Part shown: positions 27,370 to 43,437 of the stretch, piece by piece | Layout: the number at the start of each line of letters is the position of its first letter | Numbering within the stretch: position 1 is the stretch's first letter | NCBI RefSeq assembly: GCF_013410565.1 | Contig: NZ_JACCFO010000001.1 | Location: forward strand, 3,906,001 to 3,970,000 | Reading direction: 5' to 3' | Origin: Streptomonospora nanhaiensis | GTDB taxonomy: Bacteria > Actinomycetota > Actinomycetes > Streptosporangiales > Streptosporangiaceae | DNA: 64,000 nucleotides | Notes under the pieces: generated by a model | What the model saw: only the letters and a program-made list of their open reading frames with translations | Told to the model about the DNA's origin: nothing | Databases searched by the model: none | Position numbers and translations under genes: made by a program

Positions 27370-27552
27370 ATGTCCACCACCGCTCAACCGGCATCCGGCG
27401 TGCGGGTGCGCGCCGTCCTCCGCGCCCGCGCCGCGCTGCGGGCGTCGGCCGCCCGGCGCGCCGCCCCGGGCGCCGCCGACCCCGCCGCCTGCGCCGCGCC
27501 CGCCCGCCCCGAACCCTCCGCGGGCACCGCCCCGAAGGCGGGGCGGCCGTGA
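27370..27552 (+). CDS. Small Ala/Arg-rich leader ORF before dnaN paralogue
   Basis: A 60-residue open frame whose TGA overlaps the next gene's GTG (GTGA, 27549-27552), an arrangement that favours coupled translation. The product is basic and Ala/Pro-rich (RVRAVLRARAALRASAARRA) with no recognised domain. It may be a genuine small protein or just an upstream open frame. Confidence 0.45.
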   Translation: MSTTAQPASGVRVRAVLRARAALRASAARRAAPGAADPAACAAPARPEPSAGTAPKAGRP

Positions 27553-28694
27553 TCTTCGGAGCCGACCGCGACTCCTTCGCCGAGGCCGTGGCCTGGACCG
27601 CGCGGGCGCTGCCCGCGCGGCCGGCCATGCCGGTGCTGGCCGGCATGCGCCTGGAGATCGCCGAGGGCTCCTCCACCCTGCGGCTGTCCAGCTTCGACTA
27701 CGAGGTCTCGGCCCGCGCCGAACTCGACGTCGACGTCGAGGCCCCCGGCGCCGTGCTGGTCTCGGGCCGCCTGCTCGCCGAGATCGCCCGCAACCTCCCC
27801 GCCGCGCCGCTGCGGCTGCGGGCCGACGGCGCCCGCGTGCTCGTCACCTGCGGCAGCGCCAAGTTCACCCTGCTCACCCTGCCGCTTGAGGACTACCCCA
27901 CCCTGCCCGACATGCCGCGCACCACGGGCCAGGTCGGCGCGGAGGCATTCACCGCCGCCGTCCGCCAGGTCACCCCGGCGGCCAGCCGCGACGACACCCT
28001 GCCCATGCTCACCGGGGTCAATATCGCCTTCCGGGGCGACACCCTCACCCTGGCGGCCACCGACCGCTACCGCATCGCCGTGCGCCACCTGTGGTGGAAG
28101 CCCGAGATCCCCGACCTCGACACCGCCGCGCTGGTGCCCGCGCGCACGCTGCACGACATCGCGCGCTCGCTGGCGCCCGGGTCCAACGTCGACATCGCGC
28201 TGTCCGCGGCGGCCCCGGGCGCCGCCGCGCACGGCGACGGCATGATCGGCTTCGACAACAGCGGGCGGCGCACCACCACGCGGCTCATCGACAGCGACTT
28301 CATCCCCTACCAGAACCGCTTCCCCGCCGAGTCCGCGGCGCGCGCCACGGTCCCCACCGGTCCGCTGATCGAGGCCGTCAAGCGCGTCGCCCTCGTGGCC
28401 GACCGCAACACCCCGCTGCGGCTCTCGTTCACCGAGCGCGAGGTCGTCCTTGAGGCAGGCTCGGGCGACGACGCCCAGGCGGCCGAGGCCCTCGACGTCG
28501 AGTTCAGCGGCGATCCCCTGCGGGTGGCGTTCACCCCCGAGTACTTCCTCGACGGCCTGGGCGCCGTGCAGACCGAGTCCGCCCGCATCGACTTCACCCA
28601 GCCCACCAAGCCCGTGGTGGTGTCCGACGTCCCCGCCGACCCCTCCGCGCCCTCGGAGTTCCGCTACCTGGTCATGCCCTTGCGGGTGCCCTAG
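27549..28694 (+). CDS. DNA polymerase III beta-clamp paralogue
   Basis: Sliding-clamp protein of 381 residues with the three repeated clamp domains of DnaN: MPVLAGMRLEIAEGSSTLRL (first domain), LPMLTGVNIAFRGDTLTLAATDRYRIAV (second, split here by normal spacing), and FTPEYFLDGLGAVQ (third). It ends in VMPLRVP, close to the usual LMPMRL tail. The usual dnaA and recF neighbours are absent; it is flanked by a thioesterase and a PPOX-type gene, so it is likely a second clamp and not the oriC-linked copy. Possible roles include a spare or antibiotic-insensitive clamp, or one dedicated to repair; the sequence does not decide. Confidence 0.9.
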   Translation: MIFGADRDSFAEAVAWTARALPARPAMPVLAGMRLEIAEGSSTLRLSSFDYEVSARAELDVDVEAPGAVLVSGRLLAEIARNLPAAPLRLRADGARVLVTCGSAKFTLLTLPLEDYPTLPDMPRTTGQVGAEAFTAAVRQVTPAASRDDTLPMLTGVNIAFRGDTLTLAATDRYRIAVRHLWWKPEIPDLDTAALVPARTLHDIARSLAPGSNVDIALSAAAPGAAAHGDGMIGFDNSGRRTTTRLIDSDFIPYQNRFPAESAARATVPTGPLIEAVKRVALVADRNTPLRLSFTEREVVLEAGSGDDAQAAEALDVEFSGDPLRVAFTPEYFLDGLGAVQTESARIDFTQPTKPVVVSDVPADPSAPSEFRYLVMPLRVP

Positions 28695-31340: not shown

Positions 31341-32255
31341 TCAGGTCCGCCCGGAGTGGTCGCGCCGGACGACCGCGGGCGCCGCGGCCTCCAGCCACTC
31401 GGGGCCCACCACGGCCGTGCGCCGCGCCCCGGCGAAGGCGTCGGGGCGGTCGGTGACGACCACGGTGAACGCCTCGGGCCGCGCGGAGACCGGCAGGGCG
31501 CCGGCCGCCGAGGCGACCACCTCCACGCCCGCCACGGGGGGCGGGGCGCTCCCGGCGCCGCCCGTCAGCAGCACCGTCCGCGGGTACCACAGGTGCAGCC
31601 CGGCGGGCGCGAGCCCGGCCGGAAGCGCGTCGGCGGCGACCCCGGCGGCGCTGAGGGCCGCGAGGTCGTCGCGCAGCCGCAGCAGCGCCGCGTCGCGGTC
31701 CCCGCCCCCGCCGCCGTCGCGGCCGCCGGCCGCGCCCGCCACCGCCGGCACGGCGGGGGCGTCGACCACCAGCGCCAGGCGGTGCGCCAGCGCCTCGCGC
31801 AGCAGCGGCCAGGTGCGGCCGAACGCGGGCAGCAGCCGCAGCCCGTCGATGTCGGCGACATCGACCCAGCGCAGGTCGTCGCTCTCCCAGTTGGCCGGCT
31901 CCAGGCGGGCGGCGGCCGGCGTGCGCGCCAGCACGGTGTCGTAGCGCCACACCGTGTGCTCCTGGCGGTGGACGCCGATCAGTTCGATCTCGCCGACCTC
32001 GCCGGCGACCTCCTCGCCGAACTCGCGCAGCGCCGCCGACACGGAGTCCTCGTCGCTGTTCAGGGCGCCGCCGGGCACCCCCCAGGTGTCGCCCTGGTGG
32101 CTCCACACCGCGCGGTGCTGCATCAGCACCCGGCCGCCGCCCGCGCCCGCGGAGTCCGCGCACAGCAGCAGGCCCGCGCTGCCGTAGCGGCCCCACCGGC
32201 GTGTGCCGTCGGGCAGGTGGACCCAGCCGTCGCCGTCGCCCGCATCCGCGCTCAT
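31341..32255 (-). CDS. NUDIX hydrolase with C-terminal extension
   Basis: A 304-residue protein. The first 150 residues are a Nudix domain (GSAGLLLCADSAG; Nudix box GALNSDEDSVSAALREFGEE) which would hydrolyse a nucleoside-diphosphate-linked substrate with Mg2+. The family's last Gly of the box is shifted by one position. The C-terminal 150 residues are not recognised and resemble a separate Rossmann-like or cut-off domain (LAALSAAGVAADALPAG, AFTVVVTDRPDAF). ATG 32255 follows GGAGG at six bases. The substrate is unknown. Confidence 0.82.
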   Translation of the reverse strand: MSADAGDGDGWVHLPDGTRRWGRYGSAGLLLCADSAGAGGGRVLMQHRAVWSHQGDTWGVPGGALNSDEDSVSAALREFGEEVAGEVGEIELIGVHRQEHTVWRYDTVLARTPAAARLEPANWESDDLRWVDVADIDGLRLLPAFGRTWPLLREALAHRLALVVDAPAVPAVAGAAGGRDGGGGGDRDAALLRLRDDLAALSAAGVAADALPAGLAPAGLHLWYPRTVLLTGGAGSAPPPVAGVEVVASAAGALPVSARPEAFTVVVTDRPDAFAGARRTAVVGPEWLEAAAPAVVRRDHSGRT

Positions 32256-32442
32256 CCCACCTCCAGGTCGGCCGCGGCGCCCCTGCGCCGCGGCGGCCGG
32301 CGCCCCGCGCCGCTCGCCGTCTGTGCCTCGCACCAGTGTCCAGCGGGGGACACCGCCGCCTGTACCACCCTGCACATCACGGCCGACTCCGGCCAGTGCC
32401 CAAGCCCCCCGAAACGGGGCGGACCGCTAAAATTCCACAGCG

Positions 32443-33756
32443 ATGACCTTCAGGACGGCGCCACCGGCCCCCGCCCCGGCACCCTCGGCGGCGGTATCGG
32501 TCGTGAGACTGCCCCTCTACACCCTCGACCTCGCGAGGCGGTACTGGGCGCCGTTGCTGTGCGTGTACCTGGTCGGGTCCTTCATCCACGACATGCTCAT
32601 GCGCAGCCTGGTCTTCGTGGCCGACTTCGACCAGAACATCGCGCTGATCGGCGTCGCGCTGGCCACCCTGGTCGAGCTCACGATGTTCATCGTGATGTTC
32701 CACATGCTGCGGCCGGCCCTGCCCACCGTCGACACCGAACTGGTGTCATCGCGCACGGGCACGCTGGGCGAGCGCGAGCGGCGCTGGGTCGACGCGGTCG
32801 CCATGGCGATCCTGCCGTTCCTGATCTTCTACAACGCCTGGGGCGTCTTCGAGGACGAGTTCCGCCAGTACACGACCACCCTGTTCAACGAGCGGGGCTT
32901 TGGCATGTGGACCGACGCCGCGTTCCTCAACGCGCTCGGCCTGCCGCTGGCGATCGCCCTCAGCGCCTACCTGCTGCGCGTCGTCTGCGACCGCTACTAC
33001 ACCAGGACGGACAACAAGGCGCTCGGACTGCTGTCGGTGGTCTTCGAGGCCAACTGGATGTTCTTCGCGTGCTTCTCCACGGCGCACATCTTCGGGTCCA
33101 TCCAGGAGTGGGCGGCCGACCGCCGGGTGTGGGTGGAGTCGACCGGCGCCCTGTTGGAGGCCGTGCGCAGCCTGGGCGAGGCCACCTCCCTGCCGCTGGA
33201 GGCCGGCTACCTGGCGATGCTGCAGGGCCTGGGCGCCGCCGCCACGGTCTTCTGGGAGGGCGTCACGCAGCCGCTGGTGTGGCTGACCATCGCCGCGGTG
33301 ATCTTCGGCGCCGAGATCGACCGGCACGAGGCGCTGTTCCGCAAGGGCACCCGGGCCGCCAAGGTCGAGGAGCTGCTGACCGGCGACCGGCGCGGGTTCG
33401 TGCACCAGATCAGCAGGTTCGCCCGGCAGGACACCGCCGAGCGCTACATGCCCTTCCTCAACGCCTTCCGGTTCATCCTGCGCGCCAGCCCGGTCTTCTT
33501 CCTCGGGTTCTGCCTGAACTATGTGCTGATCGAGCTGGGCTGCGACTGGCTCCAGCGCGGGGTGTTCGTCCTGATCGGGCCGCACGACTTCCTGGGCTGG
33601 TGGTGGCCGCTGCTGGAGCCGGTCCACCTCGCGGTGGAGGCGGTGCGGCACGTGCTGCGGGTGTGCCTGCTGGCGGTGACCTTCGAGATCACCCTGCGCA
33701 GTGTGACCGCGGCGAGCACGGGCCGCCGGGCGCGGGTGCCCGGCCGCGTCGGCTGA
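32443..33756 (+). CDS. Polytopic membrane protein of unknown function
   Basis: A 437-residue integral membrane protein with about eight helices (for example APLLCVYLVGSFIHDMLM, ALIGVALATLVELTMFIVMF, AILPFLIFYNAWGVFEDEF, ASPVFFLGFCLNYVLIELG). A hydrophilic loop near residue 310 carries RKGTRAAKVEELLTGDRRG. No domain is recognised; it may be a transporter or enzyme of a little-known family. A TAAAAT -10-like box (32428-32433) lies nine bases before ATG 32443. Confidence 0.75.
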   Translation: MTFRTAPPAPAPAPSAAVSVVRLPLYTLDLARRYWAPLLCVYLVGSFIHDMLMRSLVFVADFDQNIALIGVALATLVELTMFIVMFHMLRPALPTVDTELVSSRTGTLGERERRWVDAVAMAILPFLIFYNAWGVFEDEFRQYTTTLFNERGFGMWTDAAFLNALGLPLAIALSAYLLRVVCDRYYTRTDNKALGLLSVVFEANWMFFACFSTAHIFGSIQEWAADRRVWVESTGALLEAVRSLGEATSLPLEAGYLAMLQGLGAAATVFWEGVTQPLVWLTIAAVIFGAEIDRHEALFRKGTRAAKVEELLTGDRRGFVHQISRFARQDTAERYMPFLNAFRFILRASPVFFLGFCLNYVLIELGCDWLQRGVFVLIGPHDFLGWWWPLLEPVHLAVEAVRHVLRVCLLAVTFEITLRSVTAASTGRRARVPGRVG

Positions 33757-33806
33757 GGCGGCGGCGCGGACCCGCGCGGGCCCGGCCCCCGGAACCGCGC
33801 CGGCCG

Positions 33807-34823
33807 CTACCGCTCGAAGCGCACAGCCTGCGGCGCCGGCTCCGCCTCGGGGTCGGTGGTGATGTCGGTGGCGACCTCGAAGGCCAGGCCGTCGACCGCG
33901 TCCTCGGGCACGACGAAGGTCGCCGCGACCCGGACCTCCTCGCCGGCCTTCAGCGGCTTGCCCTCCTCGTCGAAACAGCCGTAGTCGGGGGCGATCGCGT
34001 CGGCGACGCTGGGGCGCATGTCGTAGCCGGAGGCGGTGCCCCACCAGCGCTCGCCGTCGCCCTCGACCGCGCGCACCGCGCAGGTGCCCAGCAGCTTGGC
34101 CGCGCGGCCCTCGCCCGGCACCACGGTGAAGAAGGCGTCGACCACCACCGCGCCCTCGGGCGGCGGCGCGGCGTCCTCGACCTCGCCCACGGCCACCTCG
34201 TCCAGCGACCAGGTGTTGCCGAGCAGGTCCACCTCGTCCTGGCCCTCGGGCACCGCCTCGGCGATGGGGTACATGGATCCGTCCTGGAGGGCCGAGCGCC
34301 GCTCCAGCCACCACGGCACGCCGAAGGCCACCGGGACCATCACGACCAGCACCGCGATGGAGGGCAGCTGGGCGCGACGCCACCACGGCCCGGTGCGGCG
34401 CGGCTCCGAGAGCCGCGTTCCACGGCGCCCCTCGGGGGGTGCCGTGGGGCCGGGAGGGGCGGGGGGCACGCCCGGCGGCGGGCCCGGCCGCGCCGGGGGC
34501 GGGCCGAACGAGGGGGCGCCCGGCGGGGGCGGCGGCCCGAACCGGCCGGGGGCGGGGTGGGGGCCGGTGGGCGGCTGGGCCGGGGGCGGTCCGGCCGGGC
34601 GGTGCCCGGGGGGCGGGCCCGGCGGCATCCGGTAGGGGTTGGGGGCGCCGGGGGGCGGCCCCGGCGGCAAAGGACCCGGCGGCGGCCCCTGCGGCGGGCC
34701 GGGCGGAGGGCCGTAGGGCGGGCGGTGGCCGGGCGGCGGACCCGGGGGCGGCCCGTAGCCCGGTCCGGGCGGCGGCGGGCCCGGGGGCTGCTGTCCGCGC
34801 CTGCGGGGATCGTCGGGGTGCAT
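33807..34823 (-). CDS. Proline-rich membrane-anchored extracytoplasmic protein
   Basis: A 338-residue protein. The first 150 residues are cytoplasmic and almost only Pro and Gly (GPPPG repeats), then a helix (LPSIAVLVVMVPVAFGVPWW) anchors an extracellular domain. That domain begins LGNTWSLDEVAVGEVEDA and contains an acidic beta-rich stretch with three Cys (GTCAVRAVEG, DYGCFDEEG). It looks like an immunoglobulin-like fold of the DUF4352 type. It is the last of three consecutive genes with similar anchored products. Confidence 0.7.
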   Translation of the reverse strand: MHPDDPRRRGQQPPGPPPPGPGYGPPPGPPPGHRPPYGPPPGPPQGPPPGPLPPGPPPGAPNPYRMPPGPPPGHRPAGPPPAQPPTGPHPAPGRFGPPPPPGAPSFGPPPARPGPPPGVPPAPPGPTAPPEGRRGTRLSEPRRTGPWWRRAQLPSIAVLVVMVPVAFGVPWWLERRSALQDGSMYPIAEAVPEGQDEVDLLGNTWSLDEVAVGEVEDAAPPPEGAVVVDAFFTVVPGEGRAAKLLGTCAVRAVEGDGERWWGTASGYDMRPSVADAIAPDYGCFDEEGKPLKAGEEVRVAATFVVPEDAVDGLAFEVATDITTDPEAEPAPQAVRFER

Positions 34824-34843
34824 GTCAGCGGCTTTCTACGGGA

Positions 34844-35455
34844 TCACGGGATCTGCGCCGGCGCCGGGATGGAGATGGACTCCTCCGGCGAGGCGGTCAT
34901 CTCGGCGATCTCGTCCTCGCCGAGGCCGAGGTCGATGTCGGCGCGGGCGCTGAGCCGGGCGTCGAGGGACTCCCGCGCGCTGACCTGGAGGACGGGGTCG
35001 ACCAGCCGGTCCTTGGGGACCTCGAACACGAACGCGCCGCCCACGGAGATCCCCGGGCTGAGCGTGGGGCCGCTGCCGGTCCCCAGGCCGTTGTACAGCC
35101 AGGAGGTCACCGAGTAGGTGTAGCCGTCGCCCATGGCCAACCGGGCCTCCACGGTGCCCAGCGGAGCGTGCTGGGAGGTGATGCGGGCGGGCACCACCAC
35201 CCACACGCCGTGCGGCTTGAGGGCGGCGCCGCCGCCCAGCCCGCCCTCGTCCTGGACGGAGGCGGCGATCCGGGCCTCGCTGGCGGTGATGGTGAACTGA
35301 TCGGCGTCGACCTCGGTGCCGACCTCGCCGGAGAAGGCGATGGGCTCGGTGTCGTCGGTCTCGCCCGGCAGCATGGACTGCGCCACGAAGATCAGCACGA
35401 GCAGGACCGCGCAGGAGGCCACGGTGAGAGCGCGGCGCGGGAGTGCGGTCGCCAT
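34844..35455 (-). CDS. Exported, membrane-anchored beta-rich protein
   Basis: A 203-residue protein with an N-terminal signal anchor (LTVASCAVLLVLIFVAQSM) and an extracytoplasmic domain. The core reads GTEVDADQFTITASEARIAA, a form shared with the next gene product, then PHGVWVVVPARITSQHAPLG. It probably has an immunoglobulin-like fold; no catalytic motif is visible. It starts six bases after the upstream stop and ends 20 bases before the next start, so the three genes form one unit. Confidence 0.68.
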   Translation of the reverse strand: MATALPRRALTVASCAVLLVLIFVAQSMLPGETDDTEPIAFSGEVGTEVDADQFTITASEARIAASVQDEGGLGGGAALKPHGVWVVVPARITSQHAPLGTVEARLAMGDGYTYSVTSWLYNGLGTGSGPTLSPGISVGGAFVFEVPKDRLVDPVLQVSARESLDARLSARADIDLGLGEDEIAEMTASPEESISIPAPAQIP

Positions 35456-35461
35456 GAGGGC

Positions 35462-36205
35462 CTAGACCTCCACCGTCACCGGGAGCGTGACCTCGGCCGC
35501 GACGTCGTCCTCGGAGAACCAGCGCTCGGACTGGTCGGTGAACCCGGGCTGGTAGACGTTCTGGTGGACGGTGAGGGTGACCTCGCGCTCCTCGGCCACG
35601 ACGGGGCCGAGGTCCGGGGGGTCCTCCAGCAGGGCGTCCCAGTCGACCTCGGCCTGCTCGCGCTCGCACTCCAGCCGGGCGAGGGGGTCGTCGCAGTCCT
35701 CGTCCTTCTTGTCGGGCTCGCCCAGCGACCACACCAGCAGGGCCTCCTCGGGCATGTCCGGCTGGATCTCGCTCACCACGCCCGCGGGATGGCGGGTGTA
35801 CTTCACGGTGAGCATGGTGGTCTCCAGCTTGCCCGAGGGGAACTCCACCTCGATGGACTGGTCGATGCTGTCGGCCCAGAACGGCTGGGTGTCGTTGGAG
35901 ACGAGGTCGGCGCGCACCTGGAGCACGGTCAGGCCGGTGTCGGGGTCCTCGGTGAAGACGGCCTCGTGCGGGGTGAGGGTGAACTGCCGGGTCTCGACCT
36001 TGGTGCCCGGCGGCGAGGCGGGCGCGGCGTCGGCGGGTTCGAAGCCGCCGGCGGCCCAGATGGCCACCGCCGAGACGGTCAGCAGCACGCTGCCCCCCAG
36101 GGCGATGAGGGCACGCGCGAACCGGCCCTCGGGGAGGATGCCGCCGCCCGGGCCTTCGGGGTGGGGAGCGTGGTGTGCCACGGGGAGGAAGTCTAGGGGC
36201 AACAC
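35462..36205 (-). CDS. Membrane-anchored extracytoplasmic protein
   Basis: A 247-residue protein with a short cytoplasmic N-terminus, a helix (ALIALGGSVLLTVSAVAIW) and an extracellular domain beginning GTKVETRQFTLTPHEAVFTE. This matches the GTEVDADQFTITASEA block of the next gene, so the two are paralogues. Two Cys close an acidic loop (KDEDCDDPLARLECERE). The start is uncertain: GTG at 36205 and GTG at 36181 both lack a good ribosome site. First gene of the three-gene unit. Confidence 0.65.
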   Translation of the reverse strand: MLPLDFLPVAHHAPHPEGPGGGILPEGRFARALIALGGSVLLTVSAVAIWAAGGFEPADAAPASPPGTKVETRQFTLTPHEAVFTEDPDTGLTVLQVRADLVSNDTQPFWADSIDQSIEVEFPSGKLETTMLTVKYTRHPAGVVSEIQPDMPEEALLVWSLGEPDKKDEDCDDPLARLECEREQAEVDWDALLEDPPDLGPVVAEEREVTLTVHQNVYQPGFTDQSERWFSEDDVAAEVTLPVTVEV

Positions 36206-36637
36206 GCCCGGTCGTGTCGTTCGCGGCCTGATGCGGACAGATTCCCCAGGGCGGGCGGTGGTCGGGGAAACCCGCAGGTGGGGCGGCCGGTCACCGGCGG
36301 CGGGGGCGGGCGGCGGCGGGGCCGCGCGGCGTCTTACGGCGGGGCCGCCGTGGCCGAAAGCGGACTGTAAGGCGGGCGCAAGACCGGCTTCCTAGGCTCA
36401 AGGCACACTCGGCGAAACCGGTACCCGCGGGAGGACGGCCCGCGGGCGCCGGTTGAACCGGGTGCCGGGGCCGAGAAGGCAGGTCGGCGGGGAGCCCGAC
36501 CTGCGCGGCCCCGCGCTGCTGCGGGCACGCGGGAACCCCGCGTCCGCGCGCGCTCTCGGGGGAGGCGGTGCGGCCGGTGGTCCGGTCCGGGCCGCCCGGC
36601 AACCGCCTGTGCGTCATCCGAACTCAAGGGAGTACCT
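36206..36637. other. Intergenic region before the small-peptide pair
   Basis: About 430 bases without a supported gene between a minus-strand unit and the plus-strand peptide genes. It must hold two divergent promoters. A plus-strand TAGGCT-type box occurs near 36393. No repeat or RNA motif was recognised. Confidence 0.4.
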
Positions 36638-36820
36638 ATGTCCGGGATCCTGGCCGCGGACCCGCGCGTCGAAGAGATCGAGTTCGCGCTGATCACCGCG
36701 GGCATCGAGGTGCCCGCCACGGCGCGGCTGGAGCCCATGGGGGACGACTTCCTACCGCTTGAGGACGAGGACGACGTCGAGTTCACCGACGAGGACGACC
36801 CGGCCATCGACTGGCCCTAG
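36638..36820 (+). CDS. Small acidic peptide A (SARP-linked)
   Basis: A 60-residue peptide, very acidic at its C-terminus. It starts at ATG 36638 with AAGGGAG seven bases upstream. The block ADPRVEEIEFALITAGIE (about 7-24) matches ADPMVDIEFARITARLE in the following peptide, while the tails differ: this one continues with LEDEDDVEFTDEDDPAIDWP. There is no signal peptide and no Cys. A conserved front with a variable end is seen in RiPP precursors and in pheromone pre-peptides, but no maturation enzyme is next to it. Function unknown. Confidence 0.7.
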   Translation: MSGILAADPRVEEIEFALITAGIEVPATARLEPMGDDFLPLEDEDDVEFTDEDDPAIDWP

Positions 36821-36850
36821 CCCTCGCCCCACTGACACAAGGAGCAACCA

Positions 36851-37048
36851 ATGACGCTGACGCCGGTCGCCGACCCGATGGTCGACATCGAGTTCGCGCG
36901 CATCACCGCGCGGCTGGAGCCGTTCTCCGAGCCCGACCCGGAGCAGGGCGGCGAGCCCGCGCCCGTCTCGACCACGCCGGCTCCCCAGGAGACCGAGCCC
37001 AAGCAGGGCGAACGCCCCGCCGAGCGTCCGGAGCCGGCCGATCGCTAA
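36851..37048 (+). CDS. Small acidic peptide B (SARP-linked)
   Basis: A 65-residue peptide, 30 bases after peptide A and preceded by AAGGAG. The first 27 residues repeat the ADP..V..IEFA.ITA block, and the DNA also shows it (36678-36707 and 36890-36919). The C-terminus is Pro/Glu-rich and lacks hydrophobic residues (PAPQETEPKQGERPAERPEP). No Cys and few Ser/Thr, which argues against a lanthipeptide core. It lies 111 bases before the SARP gene and points the same way. Confidence 0.68.
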   Translation: MTLTPVADPMVDIEFARITARLEPFSEPDPEQGGEPAPVSTTPAPQETEPKQGERPAERPEPADR

Positions 37049-37146
37049 CGGCCGTCGCGGCCGTTTCACCGCCGCCGTACGCTGGGCATTAGGAGGGGTG
37101 CTCAGCGTGCGGCGGCGATTTCTCCCGCCGCCGCGAATGGCCTTGC

Positions 37147-37160
37147 TAGAGTGCTATTCG
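37147..37160 (+). promoter_or_regulatory. -10 box of the leaderless SARP transcript
   Basis: TAGAGT at 37147-37152 lies seven bases before the GTG at 37160, the spacing at which transcription would begin on the start codon. This gives the regulator its own promoter apart from the peptide genes. Confidence 0.6.
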
Positions 37161-40100
37161 TGAATTTTGGCGTGCTGGGTCCCATTTCGGCCTGGTCGGA
37201 TGGTGCACCGGTCCCGGTCGGCGGACCGCGGCAGCGGTGTGTCCTGGGCGCGCTTCTGGTCGATCTCGGCAAGGAAGTAACGGTCGAGCGGCTGATCGAG
37301 TTCCTCTGGAACGACAATCCCCCGCGCACGGCACGCTCCGTGATTCAAGTGCAGATTTCGCATTTGCGGCGCGCGTTTCCCGATGTCATCCAGACCACCG
37401 CCGGCGGCTACCTCGCGGCGGTCGAGCCCGACAACGTCGACCTCCACCGCTTCCGCGGCCTGGTCGCGCGCGCCGAGGCCGCCGACGACCCCGCCGAGGC
37501 CGTGGTGCTGTGGGACAAGGCGCTGGGCTGCTGGCGCGGCAACCCCTTCTCGGGCACGGGTTCGGAGCACCTGTGGTACGCGGTCTCCCAGCCGCTGCTG
37601 GAGGAGCGCTGGGCGGCACGCACCGCCTGGGCGCAGTGCGCGTTCTCGCTGCACCGCTACTCCGAGATCATCACCCGGCTCACCCCGCTGGTCCGCGAGG
37701 ACCCGCTGCGCGAGCGCCTGCAGTACTACCTGATCGCCGCGCTGTACCGTAGCGGGCAGCGCGCGGCGGCGCTCACCGCCTTCCAGGAGACCCGCGAGTA
37801 CCTCGCCGAGGAGCTGGGGGTCGACCCCAGCCCCGAGGTCATGGAGCTGCACCAGCAGATCCTGCGCGACACCGAGTCGGGGCCCGGGCGGCTGGCCGGC
37901 GCCATCGACCTGTCGCGGGTGGCCGAGCCCGTGGCGTCCCCGCCGGCCGCCGACCCCGCCGAACGCCCGCGCGACTTCGTGCCGCGCAACGACCTCCCCC
38001 GCGACATCCCCGACTTCACCGGCCGCGAACGCGACCTGGAGCGGCTGCTGGCCCTGGGCAAACGCGACGAGGGCCGCGCCGAGATCGCCGTCATCACCGG
38101 TCCGGGCGGTGCCGGAAAGACCACGCTGGCGGTGCACGGCGCGCACCGGCTGGCCGAGTGCTTTCCCGACGGCCAGCTGTTCATCGACCTCTACGGCTAC
38201 ACCGTCGAGCAGGACCCGATCACGGCGGTGTCGGCGCTGGGCAGCCTGCTGCGGGCCATCGGCGTGCAGCCCGACACCATCCCCGAGTCGGTCGAGGAGC
38301 GCGCGGCGCTGTGGCGGGCCAGCCTGGCCGGGCGGCGGGTGCTCATCGTGCTCGACAACGCCGCGAACTTCGCGCAGATCAGCCCGCTGCTGGCGGCCGC
38401 GCCGGGGTCGCTGACCATCGTCACCTCGCGCCAGGACCTCCCCGGGGTCAGCGGGGCGCAGTACATCGCGCTGGGCATGCTGAGCCCGGAGTCCTCGCTG
38501 CGGCTGTTCTCCACCGTGCTGGGCGAGGACCGCGTCGCCCACGAGGAGGCCGAGGCGCGCGAGGTCGTGCGGCTGTGCGGCGGGCTGCCGCTGGCGCTGC
38601 GGATCGTGGCCGGGCGCATGCTCAGCCGGCCCCGGTGGACGTTCCAGCACGTCAAGCTGCGGCTGGGCGAGCACCAGCGGATGTTCCGCGAGCTGCGGAT
38701 CGACGGCCAGAGCGTCGAGGCGGTCTTCGAGCTGTCCTACCAGAGCCTCAACGACGAGCAGCGCGAGGCGTTCTTGCACCTGGGCGTGATGATCGGGGGC
38801 ACGGTCGACCTGCACGGCGCGGCGGCGCTGCTGGACCGCGACCCGCCCGAGGCCGACGACCTGCTCCAGGAGCTGGTCAGCGTGTGCCTGTTCGACGAGC
38901 CCAGCGTCGACGTCTACCGGTTCCACGACCTGCTCGGCGCCTACGCCCGCGAGAAGGCGGCCACCGACCTCCCGGAGGGCGAGGCCGCGGCGGCGCGCCG
39001 GCGGCTGGCCGACCACTACCTCGACATGGCCAACCGCGCCGCCGACATGCTGGGACCGCGCGGGCACCACTTCGAGGTCGACTCCCAGAAGTCCTCGCGC
39101 TACCAGAGCCGGCTGGCCAACCGCACCGAGGCCACCACGTGGTTCGAGCGGCACCAGGACAACCTCGCCTCGGCGGTCGACTTCTACGCCGCCTCGGGGC
39201 TGGACGACGAGGCATGGCAGCTGGCCGACTCCCTGTGGCGGCACTACGCCAACCACGGCCAGACCGAACTGCTGCTGTCGACCCAGGAGAAGGCGCTGGC
39301 GGCCAGCCGCGCCAAGGGCAACGAGCGCGGCAGCGCGGCGACCCTTATCGGCCTGGGGATCGCGCACTGCCTGTCGGGCCGCTTCCAGCACGCGCTGGGC
39401 CTGCTCAACGAGGCGCGCGACATCCTCGCGGCCATCGACGACGAGCGCGGCCAGGCGCGGGTGTACTCCAGCCTGAGCGTGGTCTACGACCGGATGGGCC
39501 GCTTCCACGACGCCCTGTCGTGCGCGTGGAAGGTGTTCGAGTACGCGGTGTCGGTGGGCGACCGCGCGCTGGAGGGCCTGCAGCGGGCCAACATCGCCGC
39601 GATGTACCAGGTGCTGGGCGACTACGACAAGGCCGTCGAGTTCTGCGAGTCGGCGCTGAAGATCAAGCACGAGGAGGGCCAGTACGAGACCTCGGCCCAG
39701 GTGCTGCGCATCCTCGGCGAGGTCAACACCCAGCAGGACAACCTGGAGCGCGCGTTCTCCTACCTGTCGGAGGCGCTGAAGCTGGCGCAGCTGATCGGGT
39801 CGCAGCGCGACGAGATCTACATCCGCAACGCGATGGCGGTGGCGCTGCGCCGCAAGGGCGACATCGAGGCCGCGATCGAGTCCCACCTGCTGGCCCTGGA
39901 CATGGGCGAGGAGACCGGCCAGCACAGCGCCGACGCCGAGATCCTCACCGAACTGGGCGCCACCTACGCCGAGGCCGGCCGCTTCGAGGAGGCCCGCCAG
40001 GCCCAGGAGAGCGCCCTCGACCTCGCCCGCAAGCGCGAGGAGCGCCACGTGGAGGGCCGCGCCCTGATGCGGATGGGCACCCTGCCGCCGGAGGTGGTCG

Positions 40101-40207
40101 ACCGCGAACGCGCGATCGAGTTCCTGGCCGCGTCGGCCGAACTCTTCTCCGGCCTGGGCGCCCCGGAGGCCCAGCAGGCCCACGACGCCCTGCAGGCGGC
40201 CGTCTAG
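37160..40207 (+). CDS. AfsR/SARP-family regulator with NB-ARC and TPR domains
   Basis: A 1015-residue transcriptional activator of the AfsR type, a class that controls secondary metabolism. Order: an OmpR-like DNA-binding domain (1-95, FGVLGPISAWSDG, SVIQVQISHLRRAF), the BTAD helical domain (about 98-245), an NB-ARC ATPase (about 290-560; P-loop GPGGAGKTTLAVHG, LIVLDNA, CGGLPLALRI) and C-terminal tetratricopeptide repeats (about 690-1000). GTG 37160 gives the family's typical first residues NFGVLGP and is seven bases after a -10 box. No biosynthetic cluster is adjacent. The TPR array and the two peptides upstream make a peptide-sensing role possible; this is inference. Confidence 0.93.
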   Translation: MNFGVLGPISAWSDGAPVPVGGPRQRCVLGALLVDLGKEVTVERLIEFLWNDNPPRTARSVIQVQISHLRRAFPDVIQTTAGGYLAAVEPDNVDLHRFRGLVARAEAADDPAEAVVLWDKALGCWRGNPFSGTGSEHLWYAVSQPLLEERWAARTAWAQCAFSLHRYSEIITRLTPLVREDPLRERLQYYLIAALYRSGQRAAALTAFQETREYLAEELGVDPSPEVMELHQQILRDTESGPGRLAGAIDLSRVAEPVASPPAADPAERPRDFVPRNDLPRDIPDFTGRERDLERLLALGKRDEGRAEIAVITGPGGAGKTTLAVHGAHRLAECFPDGQLFIDLYGYTVEQDPITAVSALGSLLRAIGVQPDTIPESVEERAALWRASLAGRRVLIVLDNAANFAQISPLLAAAPGSLTIVTSRQDLPGVSGAQYIALGMLSPESSLRLFSTVLGEDRVAHEEAEAREVVRLCGGLPLALRIVAGRMLSRPRWTFQHVKLRLGEHQRMFRELRIDGQSVEAVFELSYQSLNDEQREAFLHLGVMIGGTVDLHGAAALLDRDPPEADDLLQELVSVCLFDEPSVDVYRFHDLLGAYAREKAATDLPEGEAAAARRRLADHYLDMANRAADMLGPRGHHFEVDSQKSSRYQSRLANRTEATTWFERHQDNLASAVDFYAASGLDDEAWQLADSLWRHYANHGQTELLLSTQEKALAASRAKGNERGSAATLIGLGIAHCLSGRFQHALGLLNEARDILAAIDDERGQARVYSSLSVVYDRMGRFHDALSCAWKVFEYAVSVGDRALEGLQRANIAAMYQVLGDYDKAVEFCESALKIKHEEGQYETSAQVLRILGEVNTQQDNLERAFSYLSEALKLAQLIGSQRDEIYIRNAMAVALRRKGDIEAAIESHLLALDMGEETGQHSADAEILTELGATYAEAGRFEEARQAQESALDLARKREERHVEGRALMRMGTLPPEVVDRERAIEFLAASAELFSGLGAPEAQQAHDALQAAV

Positions 40208-40277
40208 GCGGCCCACGCGGCACGGCGCCCCCCGCGGGATCCAGCAAGGCACCGGGGGCCGGCACGGCCGGCGGCCT

Positions 40278-40628
40278 TCACCCGGTGTTCCACCGCCGCA
40301 CCCTGCCGTCGGCGGCGGGTCCGGTCCCGCCGCCGGCGGCGGGACCGGTCGCCGCACGCGCGAGCGAGATCAGCGCCTCCTCCCGGTGCCGAGAGCACAG
40401 GGTGTCGCCGCCGTCCCGCGCCCGGACGCACCGGTCCACAGCGCACCGCCGCCCCCGCAGCGCGGCGCGCACCTCGCGGATGTGGACCGGGCAGTGGTCC
40501 TCGACCGGCTCGGTCAACGCGATGCAGTCGGGCACCGAGCACACCCGGCTTCCGTTCAGCCACCGCGACAGCCGAACCCACCACGGAACCGCCGGAGCGG
40601 GCCCGGCGGCTCGTCTCGCACCGTCCAT
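40278..40628 (-). CDS. Small protein with two zinc-finger-like Cys/His clusters
   Basis: A 116-residue protein. It has two repeats: C-x4-C-x9-H-C-x2-H (CSVPDCIALTEPVEDHCPVH) and C-x4-C-x10-C-x2-H (CAVDRCVRARDGGDTLCSRH), each enough to bind one zinc. A basic stretch (VRLSRWLNGSR) precedes them, so nucleic-acid binding is possible. No family is recognised. The start is uncertain: ATG 40628 lacks a well-placed ribosome site and a GTG lies at 40676. Convergent with the SARP gene. Confidence 0.55.
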   Translation of the reverse strand: MDGARRAAGPAPAVPWWVRLSRWLNGSRVCSVPDCIALTEPVEDHCPVHIREVRAALRGRRCAVDRCVRARDGGDTLCSRHREEALISLARAATGPAAGGGTGPAADGRVRRWNTG

Positions 40629-40808
40629 ACCCTCAACGTGACCCCGCGGTCGCGCCGCGACAACCCCGCCGTCCACACCCGGCCGATGTCTCTAGAGAGG
40701 TTTCCCAACCCACCGACCCCGGTACCCCGCCCCACCCCTCTCACCCGCCCCACCCATAAGGCGGTGCGACCACCCCACCGGGTCCGTTAGACTTGGGGGC
40801 GCAGCAAT

Positions 40809-41753: not shown

Positions 41754-42359
41754 CTACGGGGCGGCGCCCTCCCGGTCGGGGGCCATCGCGCGGTGGACGC
41801 TGGCTCGGAGGAGGGCGCGGCGGCGGTCGTGGGTTTCCGCGGGTTCGTCCTCCGTGGCGGCGTAGACGTTGCTGACCGGTGACCACGCCATCGACATGGC
41901 GATCACCATGGCCATCAGGTCGAACGGGTCCCCCTGGCGGACGCGGCCGGCGGCCTGGGCCTCGACGATGGCGCGCAGTTTGGGGTCGTCGAGGCGGTCG
42001 GGGTCGTCGACCAGGTGGCCGGCCGGGCGGCGCTCCAGGCGGGCCCAGGTGGCCAGGCGGATGAGGTCGGGGCGGCGGAGGTACTCGTCGTAGAGGCGCA
42101 CGGCCCAGTCGGCGAGGTCGGTGGCGTCGATCGGGACGACGTCCATGATGCGCCGCAGGGAGCCGAAGAAGACGGCGTCGAACAGCCCGTCCTTGCTCCC
42201 GAAGTAGGCGTAGAGCTGCGCCTTGTTCGTGCGCGCCGCCGCGACGATCCGCTCGACGCGGGCGCCCGCGATCCCGTGCTCGGCGAACTCCCGTGTCGCC
42301 ACCTCGATGATGCGCTCGTAGGTGGCGGCTCCGCGCGAGGTCAGGGGACGGTCCGGCAT
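41754..42359 (-). CDS. TetR-family transcriptional repressor
   Basis: A 201-residue repressor. The helix-turn-helix (TYERIIEVATREFAEHGI, VERIVAAARTNKAQLYAYFG) is typical, and a C-terminal all-helical ligand domain follows. It is divergent from the alcohol dehydrogenase remnant, its likely target with itself. ATG 42359 lies seven bases after TACCGT on its strand, which suggests a leaderless mRNA; a GTG nine bases upstream is the alternative start. Confidence 0.9.
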   Translation of the reverse strand: MPDRPLTSRGAATYERIIEVATREFAEHGIAGARVERIVAAARTNKAQLYAYFGSKDGLFDAVFFGSLRRIMDVVPIDATDLADWAVRLYDEYLRRPDLIRLATWARLERRPAGHLVDDPDRLDDPKLRAIVEAQAAGRVRQGDPFDLMAMVIAMSMAWSPVSNVYAATEDEPAETHDRRRALLRASVHRAMAPDREGAAP

Positions 42360-42371
42360 GCGTTCCACGGT

Positions 42372-42390
42372 ACCGAACAGAACAGTCGGT
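42372..42390. promoter_or_regulatory. Probable TetR operator
   Basis: An inverted repeat ACCGA-N9-TCGGT (42372-42376 and 42386-42390) overlaps the divergent promoter region between the TetR gene and the dehydrogenase remnant. Autoregulation is inferred from position. Confidence 0.5.
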
Positions 42391-43437
42391 TTGCTTCGCG
42401 TCCCGCGGGCGTCGGCGCGCCGCCGGTTCGCCGCCGCGCCTGCGGCGGGCGCCGCTTCAGCGGCGCGACCCGCGCCCCGACGACCTCGTCGTCCGGGTGG
42501 ACTACTGCGGGGTCTGCCACAGCGACCTGCACGCCCTCAGCACCTGGGGCGGCGACGGGGACGGTCCGCTGGTACCCGGGCACGAGTTCACCGGCGTGGT
42601 GACCGGCACCGGCTCCGCCGTCACCCGCTTCCGCGTCGGCGACGCGGTAGCCGTGGGCAACATCGTCGACTCCTGCGGCGCGTGCCCCATGTGCCTGGCC
42701 GGCCAGGAGAACTTCTGCCGCGACTTCCCGACCCTGACCTACGGCGGCGCCGACCGCCGCGACGGGACGGTCACGCTCGGGGCCTACGCCCGCGAGTACG
42801 TGGTCGGCGAGCGCTTCGCCCACCCCCTCCCCGCCGGCCTGGAACCTGCCGCCGCCGCCCCGCTGCTGTGCGCCGGTGTCACCGTCTGGGAACCCCTGCG
42901 CGCCCTCGGCGTGGGGCCGGGAAGCCGCGTGGCGGTCGCAGGGCTGGGCGGGCTGGGCCACCTCGCGGTCAAGTTCGCGGTGGCCTCGGCGCCGAGGCCA
43001 CGGTCGTCAGCCGCTCGCCGGGCAAGGCCGGCGACGCGCGCCGGCTCGGCGCCGACGGGCTCATCGTCTCCACCGACCCGGCGCGCATGGCCGAGGCCCG
43101 CGACCGGTTCGACGTGGTCGTCGACACCGTCTCAACCCCGCACGACCTCGGTCCCTACCTGCGGCTGGTCGCGCTGGACGGCACGCTCTGCCACCTGGGG
43201 CACCTCGGCCCCGTCACCGTGGAGACCACCGACCTGCTCATCGGCCGCAGGCGGCTCACGTCCGCGGGCAGCGGCGGCAGGCCCGCCACCGCCGCCATGC
43301 TCGACTTCTGCGCCGCCCACGGCATCACCGCCGACGTCGAGGTGCTCCCCTCAGCGCGGGTGAACGAGGCGTTCGACCGCCTCCGGCGCAGCGACGTCCG
43401 CTACCGGTTCGTCCTCGACCTGTCCGACCTGGACTGA
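42391..43437 (+). pseudogene. Frameshifted zinc alcohol dehydrogenase
   Basis: Remains of a YjgB/CAD-type zinc alcohol dehydrogenase. Intact signatures are CGVCHSDLH and PGHEFTGVV (catalytic zinc), CGACPMCLAGQENFC (structural zinc) and GLGGLGHLAVKFA (nucleotide binding). The reading frame breaks twice. Near 42450 the N-terminal frame (FAAAPAAGA) must shift to reach PLQRRDPRPDDLVV. Near 42985 GCCTCGGCGCCGAG seems to lack one C, so that GAEATVVSRSP continues in the first frame to the end at 43437. No good start codon is visible; the TTG at 42391 is only a position guess. Either a decaying gene or sequencing errors. A TetR repressor sits divergently upstream. Confidence 0.75.

Follow-up and report, generated by a model that had tools for sequence, protein, structure and literature searches.

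A large SARP gene and its upstream operon of acidic mini-proteins in Streptomonospora nanhaiensis: a candidate relay of the AfsR-to-AfsS type

A SARP gene and its small acidic neighbours

A stretch of 64,000 nucleotides from Streptomonospora nanhaiensis (assembly GCF_013410565.1, contig NZ_JACCFO010000001.1, positions 3,906,001 to 3,970,000), here called the window, carries three genes in a row on its forward (+) strand: small protein 1 (open reading frame 1, ORF1; 36638..36820, 60 amino acids); small protein 2 (ORF2; 36851..37048, 65 amino acids); and a SARP-NOD(NB-ARC)-TPR activator (37160..40207, 1015 amino acids, GTG start). The promoters and hairpins described below lie on the same strand. 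An initial annotation of this DNA had placed two paralogous small ORFs here, and both are confirmed, each preceded by a ribosome-like site (AAGGGAG/AAGGAG). Judged from sequence, the SARP gene and a tiny operon of one to three acidic mini-proteins appear to form a module, found in one branch of the actinomycetes, soil bacteria that produce many antibiotics; this branch holds Streptomonospora.

The regulator is a large SARP (SARP-NOD-TPR) protein. Pfam recognises the domains BTAD (1.1e-34), NB-ARC (2.4e-13), and TPR_12 (8.6e-30), bearing out the identity first given to it; Trans_reg_C (1.9e-5, 25.1 bits) falls just below its cut-off of 26.2. The protein matches the AfsR structures 8k60 and 8jke with E of about 1e-112, and the fold of the AfsR SARP domain in 8k60 with a template-modelling score of 0.84 by target; its AlphaFold model has a mean predicted local distance difference test score (pLDDT) of 82 and a predicted template-modelling score (pTM) of 0.55. 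Orthology to AfsR was rejected: the protein scores 522 bits against the 1430 required by the NCBIfam equivalog model NF053617, and falls in a separate clade (SH-aLRT 100). The tree was a quick one with long paralogue branches, from which the divergent paralogues L114, L118, and L119 were dropped.

The block ADPxVxxIEFAxITA that the two small proteins were thought to share holds for small protein 1; in small protein 2 it is one residue shorter (ADPMVDIEFARITA). The tails differ as described: small protein 1, whose tail is acidic, has a net charge of -17 and ends in DWP; the tail of small protein 2 is rich in Pro, Glu, and Gln, with a net charge of -8. The AlphaFold model of small protein 1, of modest confidence (mean pLDDT 65, pTM 0.26), contains one helix (residues 9-20) and no fold, with disorder predicted after the helix. 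The paralogy of the two is beyond chance. When nine ORF1-type peptides are made into a profile, 8/8 ORF2-type peptides score higher against it than any shuffled decoy does (3998 of 4000 decoys scored); the reverse profile does the same for 9/9 ORF1-type peptides (4494 of 4500 scored).

Codon-level constraint was measured against Streptomonospora mangrovi (G003, NZ_JAJAQC010000013.1), the same-genus comparison genome, as proportions of synonymous (pS) and nonsynonymous (pN) differences. The ORF2 window gives pS 0.279 and pN 0.048 (pN/pS 0.17), with pN above pS in both other frames. The corresponding values for ORF1 are 0.094 and 0.058, and one other frame is at least equally constrained (pS 0.09, pN 0.042); across six same-genus loci, pN/pS is 0.72 for ORF1 and 0.59 for ORF2. 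The ORF1 statistics are weak, and the case for its translation therefore rests on relatives and on the ribosome-like site.

Relatives keep the genes together. A peptide profile (A1, built from 17 peptides; threshold E ≤ 0.01) matched in 51 of 341 family genomes, and 50 of these 51 (all but G141) were inspected, along with two weak matches from an earlier peptide search. A SARP orthologue lies directly downstream in 48/50 of the profile-match loci, or 48/52 with the two weak matches; the two profile-match loci that lack one belong to G207 and G318, the weakest-scoring genomes. Loci L041, L042, L107, and L108, with no SARP nearby, were dropped as chance matches. The gap from the last peptide stop to the SARP start is 104-175 nucleotides, and in 46/48 loci the SARP reading frame runs uninterrupted for 989-1048 codons. 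Among 60 relatives, 37 of them from the same family, an orthologue was counted at 55% identity or more (a SARP in G038, outside the family, has 38% and was not counted): within the family, all 13 genomes with a SARP orthologue have a peptide match, as against 0/24 of those without (E ≤ 0.01). The annotation would have fallen had the peptides been missing beside the SARP gene in related genomes; instead they adjoin it.

The peptides fall into two types. A C-terminal [DE][WFL]P is present in 22/23 upstream (ORF1-type) peptides from 22 loci, G108 having two; the lone exception, in L074, diverges after AKLD and is possibly frame-shifted. ORF2-type peptides have charged tails at the C-terminus. All 23 inspected loci of group g73, which we take to be Nocardiopsis (L081-L087, L089, L094-L106, L109, and L110), have a single peptide of the ORF2 type and none of the ORF1 type. 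In these loci an in-frame basic segment close to LRRRRRATLRLYASAVRRGVRVPK stands before the small ORF and is fused to the acidic protein; pN/pS for this extension is 0.166, compared with 0.62 for the remaining part (23 sequences).

What kind of product might these be? The annotation saw a conserved leader with a variable tail, as in precursors of ribosomally synthesized and post-translationally modified peptides (RiPPs) or of signal peptides. The paralogous pair, with its conserved N-terminal block and variable tails, has the right look, and two TPR families of RiPP systems, HaaT and FxSxx-TPR, match the SARP, albeit below their cut-offs. Yet the conserved part is not the leader alone, as the retention of [DE][WFL]P attests. 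Nor was a hydrophobic signal or membrane stretch found among 17 peptides (maximum 19-residue Kyte-Doolittle value 1.18); all 17 are net negative, and they hold one cysteine between them. Precursor families gave nothing beyond one chance-level NCBIfam match (E 0.46) for 1/17 peptides, and Pfam gave no match for the six searched. The linked protease or RiPP enzyme that the annotation called for was not recognised among 16 Pfam-scanned neighbours, seven of which match no Pfam family and leave room for a novel enzyme. Taken together, these points make RiPP precursors or exported signals highly improbable.

A second possibility keeps the products inside the cell, as ligands of the SARP's own TPR groove in an intracellular peptide-feedback switch that needs neither export nor RiPP chemistry. 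In favour of this, peptide and SARP co-occur, and nearly every upstream peptide has the C-terminal [DE][WFL]P. Across 35 orthologues, six polar TPR residues (R767, Q808, N811, R850, Y887, and N890) each show an identity of at least 90%, and five of these are replaced or gapped in seven AfsR-type proteins. Among the fold neighbours of the SARP are TPR domains of LGN whose structures include a bound partner. The same features would, however, also be expected of a groove with another ligand. N811 is common to five of the seven AfsR-type proteins; R850 is a gap position of a repeat-rich SARP/AfsR alignment whose repeat matching between the groups is uncertain; and the groove-facing assignment is a reading from general TPR geometry. 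Moreover, all 23 g73 loci keep the SARP although an ORF1-type peptide was not seen in them. A ligand role at the groove is thus unlikely, though not far-fetched.

Promoters and RNA hairpins

The small-protein operon appears to have a promoter of AfsR-controlled type at 36354..36398, with three direct repeats of 11-bp period (AAG cores) followed by a -10-like TAGGCT (36393-36398). Among 47 loci, AAG cores at this period end 10 bp ahead of a TAGNNT-like -10, three of them in 42/47 and two in 5/47. If the hexamer is placed, by our choice, at -12 to -7, the last two repeats lie at -40/-30 and -29/-19. This is the register of the afs box, whose geometry in the afsS promoter is given in a section of PMC10936776. 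A strict repeat pattern (one mismatch allowed) occurs exactly once per genome in 6/6 genomes, always here and always with zero mismatch. With repeats of the AfsR type in front of the peptide genes, it seems that the SARP drives this operon, and the peptides are probably its dedicated output, as afsS is for AfsR. The initial annotation suggested that the peptides could control the SARP; the likely direction is the opposite.

The SARP gene has a promoter of its own, as was first proposed. It spans 37132..37162 (TTGCTAGAGT) and includes a -10-like TAGAGT (37147-37152). A -10-like hexamer stands 6-8 nucleotides ahead of the SARP start in 48/48 loci, and a Shine-Dalgarno-like site before that start was found in 0/48; for these two reasons the mRNA is probably leaderless. 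GTG 37160 is a better candidate for the start codon than 37151. An imperfect dyad (CCRCAAATGG N13 CCATTTGTGG type) spans the -10, with 8/10 arm positions matching here, and is a candidate operator: 8-10 of the 10 arm positions match in 20/25 loci outside g73 compared with 1/23 g73 loci, counts that stand without a chance control.

Near the predicted 5' end of the operon mRNA lies hairpin 1 (36416..36454), with an inner stem (36424-36431 paired with 36439-36446), a loop AGGACGG (36432-36438), and outer arms AACCGG/CCGGTT. The loop is AGGACGG in 46/47 loci (the exception is L039) and begins 36-41 nucleotides past the -10 start in 47/47. These counts come from a search anchored on the loop; the only locus without the hairpin, L073, has no upstream DNA, its contig starting there. 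In the alignment (A5), 93.9% of cells pair, as compared with 84.9% in shuffles (0/500 reach the observed value) and 30.7-53.4% with slid partners. Six of the eight inner-stem pairs have changed on both sides, which 3/500 shuffles attain; the 14 further pair types are less telling (50/500). Relatedness inflates such covariation counts, and the slid control carries most weight.

A covariance model of the 47 hairpins (R1, threshold E ≤ 0.001) finds exactly one match in each of 65/341 family genomes, 48 of them among the inspected loci and 17 outside that set; in G110 the match is on a different contig from the inspected one. Nine module genomes contain no second match better than E 0.02, and in two genomes of group g51 and in G240 no match is better than E 0.06. 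Outside the family, 394 genomes at class level yield eight uninspected matches with E 0.003-0.01 where four are expected, the model's E-values being rough. A search of 34800-40800 against Rfam returned one chance-level Acido-1 match elsewhere (E 2.8) and no family for hairpin 1, which is apparently an undescribed RNA hairpin.

Hairpin 2 (37070..37117) lies between small protein 2 and the SARP gene, with a purine/G-rich loop (within TTAGGAGGGG). The loop of the best intergenic hairpin holds GAGG or GGGG in 40/48 loci, as against 54/600 random windows from the same loci and 1/13 strong control hairpins. Its stems vary widely in sequence, and of the six loci in group g9, five are among the eight exceptions.

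Such conservation raises the question of whether the hairpins are themselves the functional product, acting in cis or in trans on the operon or the SARP, with the small ORFs serving as leader peptides or decoys. Hairpin 1, with its invariant loop and covarying stem, is indeed wider in distribution than the peptides (65/341 for R1 at E ≤ 0.001, against 51/341 for the peptide profile at E ≤ 0.01), and hairpin 2 adds its recurrent G-rich loop. The detection of one paralogue by the profile of the other, the ribosome-like sites, and the C-terminal motif nonetheless point to selected proteins; to these may be added the low pN/pS of ORF2 (one pair) and of the g73 N-terminal extension. Given a separate promoter for the SARP gene, there is also no need to invoke its attenuation. 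An RNA-only function is therefore decidedly unlikely.

A proposed relay and its genomic setting

The reading that we favour, and hold to be moderately probable, is that the module is a relay of the AfsR-to-AfsS type that evolved separately in the branch holding Streptomonospora. The SARP-NOD-TPR activator would be made from its own leaderless promoter. A cue would relieve the NOD/TPR part, allowing the SARP domains to bind the three 11-bp repeats that replace a -35 element; the bound SARP would then switch on one dedicated operon of one to three acidic, largely disordered mini-proteins. The AGGACGG loop of hairpin 1, conserved and set on a covarying stem, may be a docking site for a protein or RNA that tunes the operon; CsrA came into consideration on account of the GGA in this loop. 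The mini-proteins would remain cytosolic and carry the relay onward, most likely docking through the conserved helix (EF..I.A) and the C-terminal [DE][WFL]P of small protein 1. Their partner could be RNA polymerase or a further regulator or, in a feedback arrangement, the TPR groove of the SARP itself. Of the annotation's interpretation, the tie between paralogous peptides and a SARP with its own promoter survives; their role as RiPP or exported-signal precursors is not supported.

Several observations weigh against such a relay. The small proteins lie upstream of the SARP gene, whereas afsS lies downstream of afsR. Homology to AfsS was rejected: hhalign gives a probability of 0.05% against seven AfsS proteins from g51 loci, no dedicated search for the 12-amino-acid repeat having been made. 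(Group g51 is presumably Streptomyces, judging from the AfsR model, which ten genomes pass.) The SARP is outside the AfsR clade, whereas one of its paralogues in S. nanhaiensis falls within it, with modest support. The repeat sequence differs from the afs box, and where the 11-bp unit starts is our choice. The strict repeat pattern was designed on this site and thus shows that there is no second strict site, while weaker or two-repeat targets may exist elsewhere; the reversed control pattern matches four times across the six genomes. The codon evidence, weak for ORF1, is mixed overall. Finally, in 2/48 loci (L094 and L102) the SARP frame is interrupted when read from the assumed start, which was extrapolated there from a partial alignment.

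Gene order on the upstream side of the module is stable: of nine module-bearing loci fetched at 18 kb, 9/9 keep the block 31341-36205, 8/9 and 7/9 the two genes preceding it. Downstream neighbours are common to S. mangrovi and hardly any further. Within the block, four genes (32503-36205; products of 417, 181, 203, and 247 amino acids) match no Pfam family over its cut-off, apart from one sub-threshold DUF4352 match, and keep their place beside the module in all nine loci. Farther off, 27549-28694 encodes all three domains of a DNA polymerase III beta clamp, and an alcohol dehydrogenase-like gene at 42322-43437 apparently has its N- and C-terminal parts in different frames, through either a broken gene or a sequencing error.

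Comparison with AfsR-AfsS and other known systems

The annotation knew of no described system with these peptides, and searches of an open-licence library aimed at them likewise showed no description. The RRNPP systems of peptide quorum sensing likewise place small ORFs beside a TPR-bearing regulator. The present peptides differ in having no export signal stretch and no sign of processing, the regulator is a STAND-type SARP, and the promoter architecture makes the small ORFs its likely targets. The FxSxx-COOH and HaaA RiPP systems have TPR proteins whose models (NCBIfam NF040586 and NF041717) match the NOD-TPR-like stretch of the SARP, but at scores far below the cut-offs (95.5 against 300 bits and 365 against 1125 bits), and no linked modification enzyme was recognised here. 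The asfR motif (PBC-36-1), in the portion of PMC11109978 that describes it, is likewise a structured RNA adjoining an AfsR-type regulator gene. It is a three-stem junction reported only in Streptomyces and placed upstream of the regulator gene, whereas the RNA described here is a hairpin that opens a small-protein mRNA, in another family.

The closest parallel is AfsR-AfsS, an antibiotic switch of Streptomyces. According to passages in PMC2267785 and PMC6988585, AfsS is a small protein, and transcription of afsS depends on AfsR. Both systems combine a SARP-NOD-TPR activator, a small-protein target gene, direct repeats of 11 bp that share their register relative to the -10, and hairpins with G-containing loops after the promoter. 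Here, by contrast, there is a third repeat, and the target comprises one to three paralogous small proteins unrelated in sequence to AfsS.

The afsS leaders of seven loci (L145-L151, taken as Streptomyces) contain a hairpin with an invariant G-rich loop, GCGTCGGGGGGCA, in 7/7, where the present operon has AGGACGG; L151 has a compensatory change in the stem. This hairpin lies 33-34 nucleotides past the box in the six loci where the box pattern matched, and a second hairpin, whose loop contains CGGGGGA, is present in 7/7. Four of the seven afsR-afsS loci were scanned with Rfam and gave no match over the gathering score, and no report of hairpins in the afsS leader was found in searches of an open-licence library.

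A 6C-type small RNA candidate with C-rich loops lies at contig positions 3584768-3584842 (L156:1501-1575), scoring 45 bits against a gathering score of 47. The mycobacterial RNA B11 is, we assume, of the 6C type. B11 pairs with G-runs through C-rich loops, according to a section of PMC10470900. Pairing of this kind with the loop of hairpin 1 was rejected, AGGACGG having no G-run; it could apply only to hairpin 2 and to afsS.

In a composite reading, the SARP would be a STAND regulator that has peptides as its ligands and RNA as a gate. The mini-proteins of the one operon that it drives would return to the TPR groove through [DE][WFL]P, while the hairpin loops (AGGACGG and GGAGGGG here; CGGGGGGC in afsS) would dock a trans-acting RNA or protein, the G-runs possibly meeting the C-rich loops of a 6C small RNA. 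Quite unlikely as we judge this combination to be, if true it would mean an undescribed RNA layer shared by AfsR-type relays.

Parts of the AfsR literature indicate where a parallel would help: a passage of PMC10936776 calls it elusive whether the sensor domain of AfsR has an inducer as ligand, and AfsS is said in a passage of PMC2267785 (2008) to act in an as yet unknown manner. On the favoured reading, a separately evolved relay whose small proteins are unrelated would help to tell the essential core, a regulator that has a single small-protein target to itself, from incidental features. The hairpin with the invariant loop, which has a counterpart in the afsS leader, suggests that antibiotic control includes a layer of RNA.

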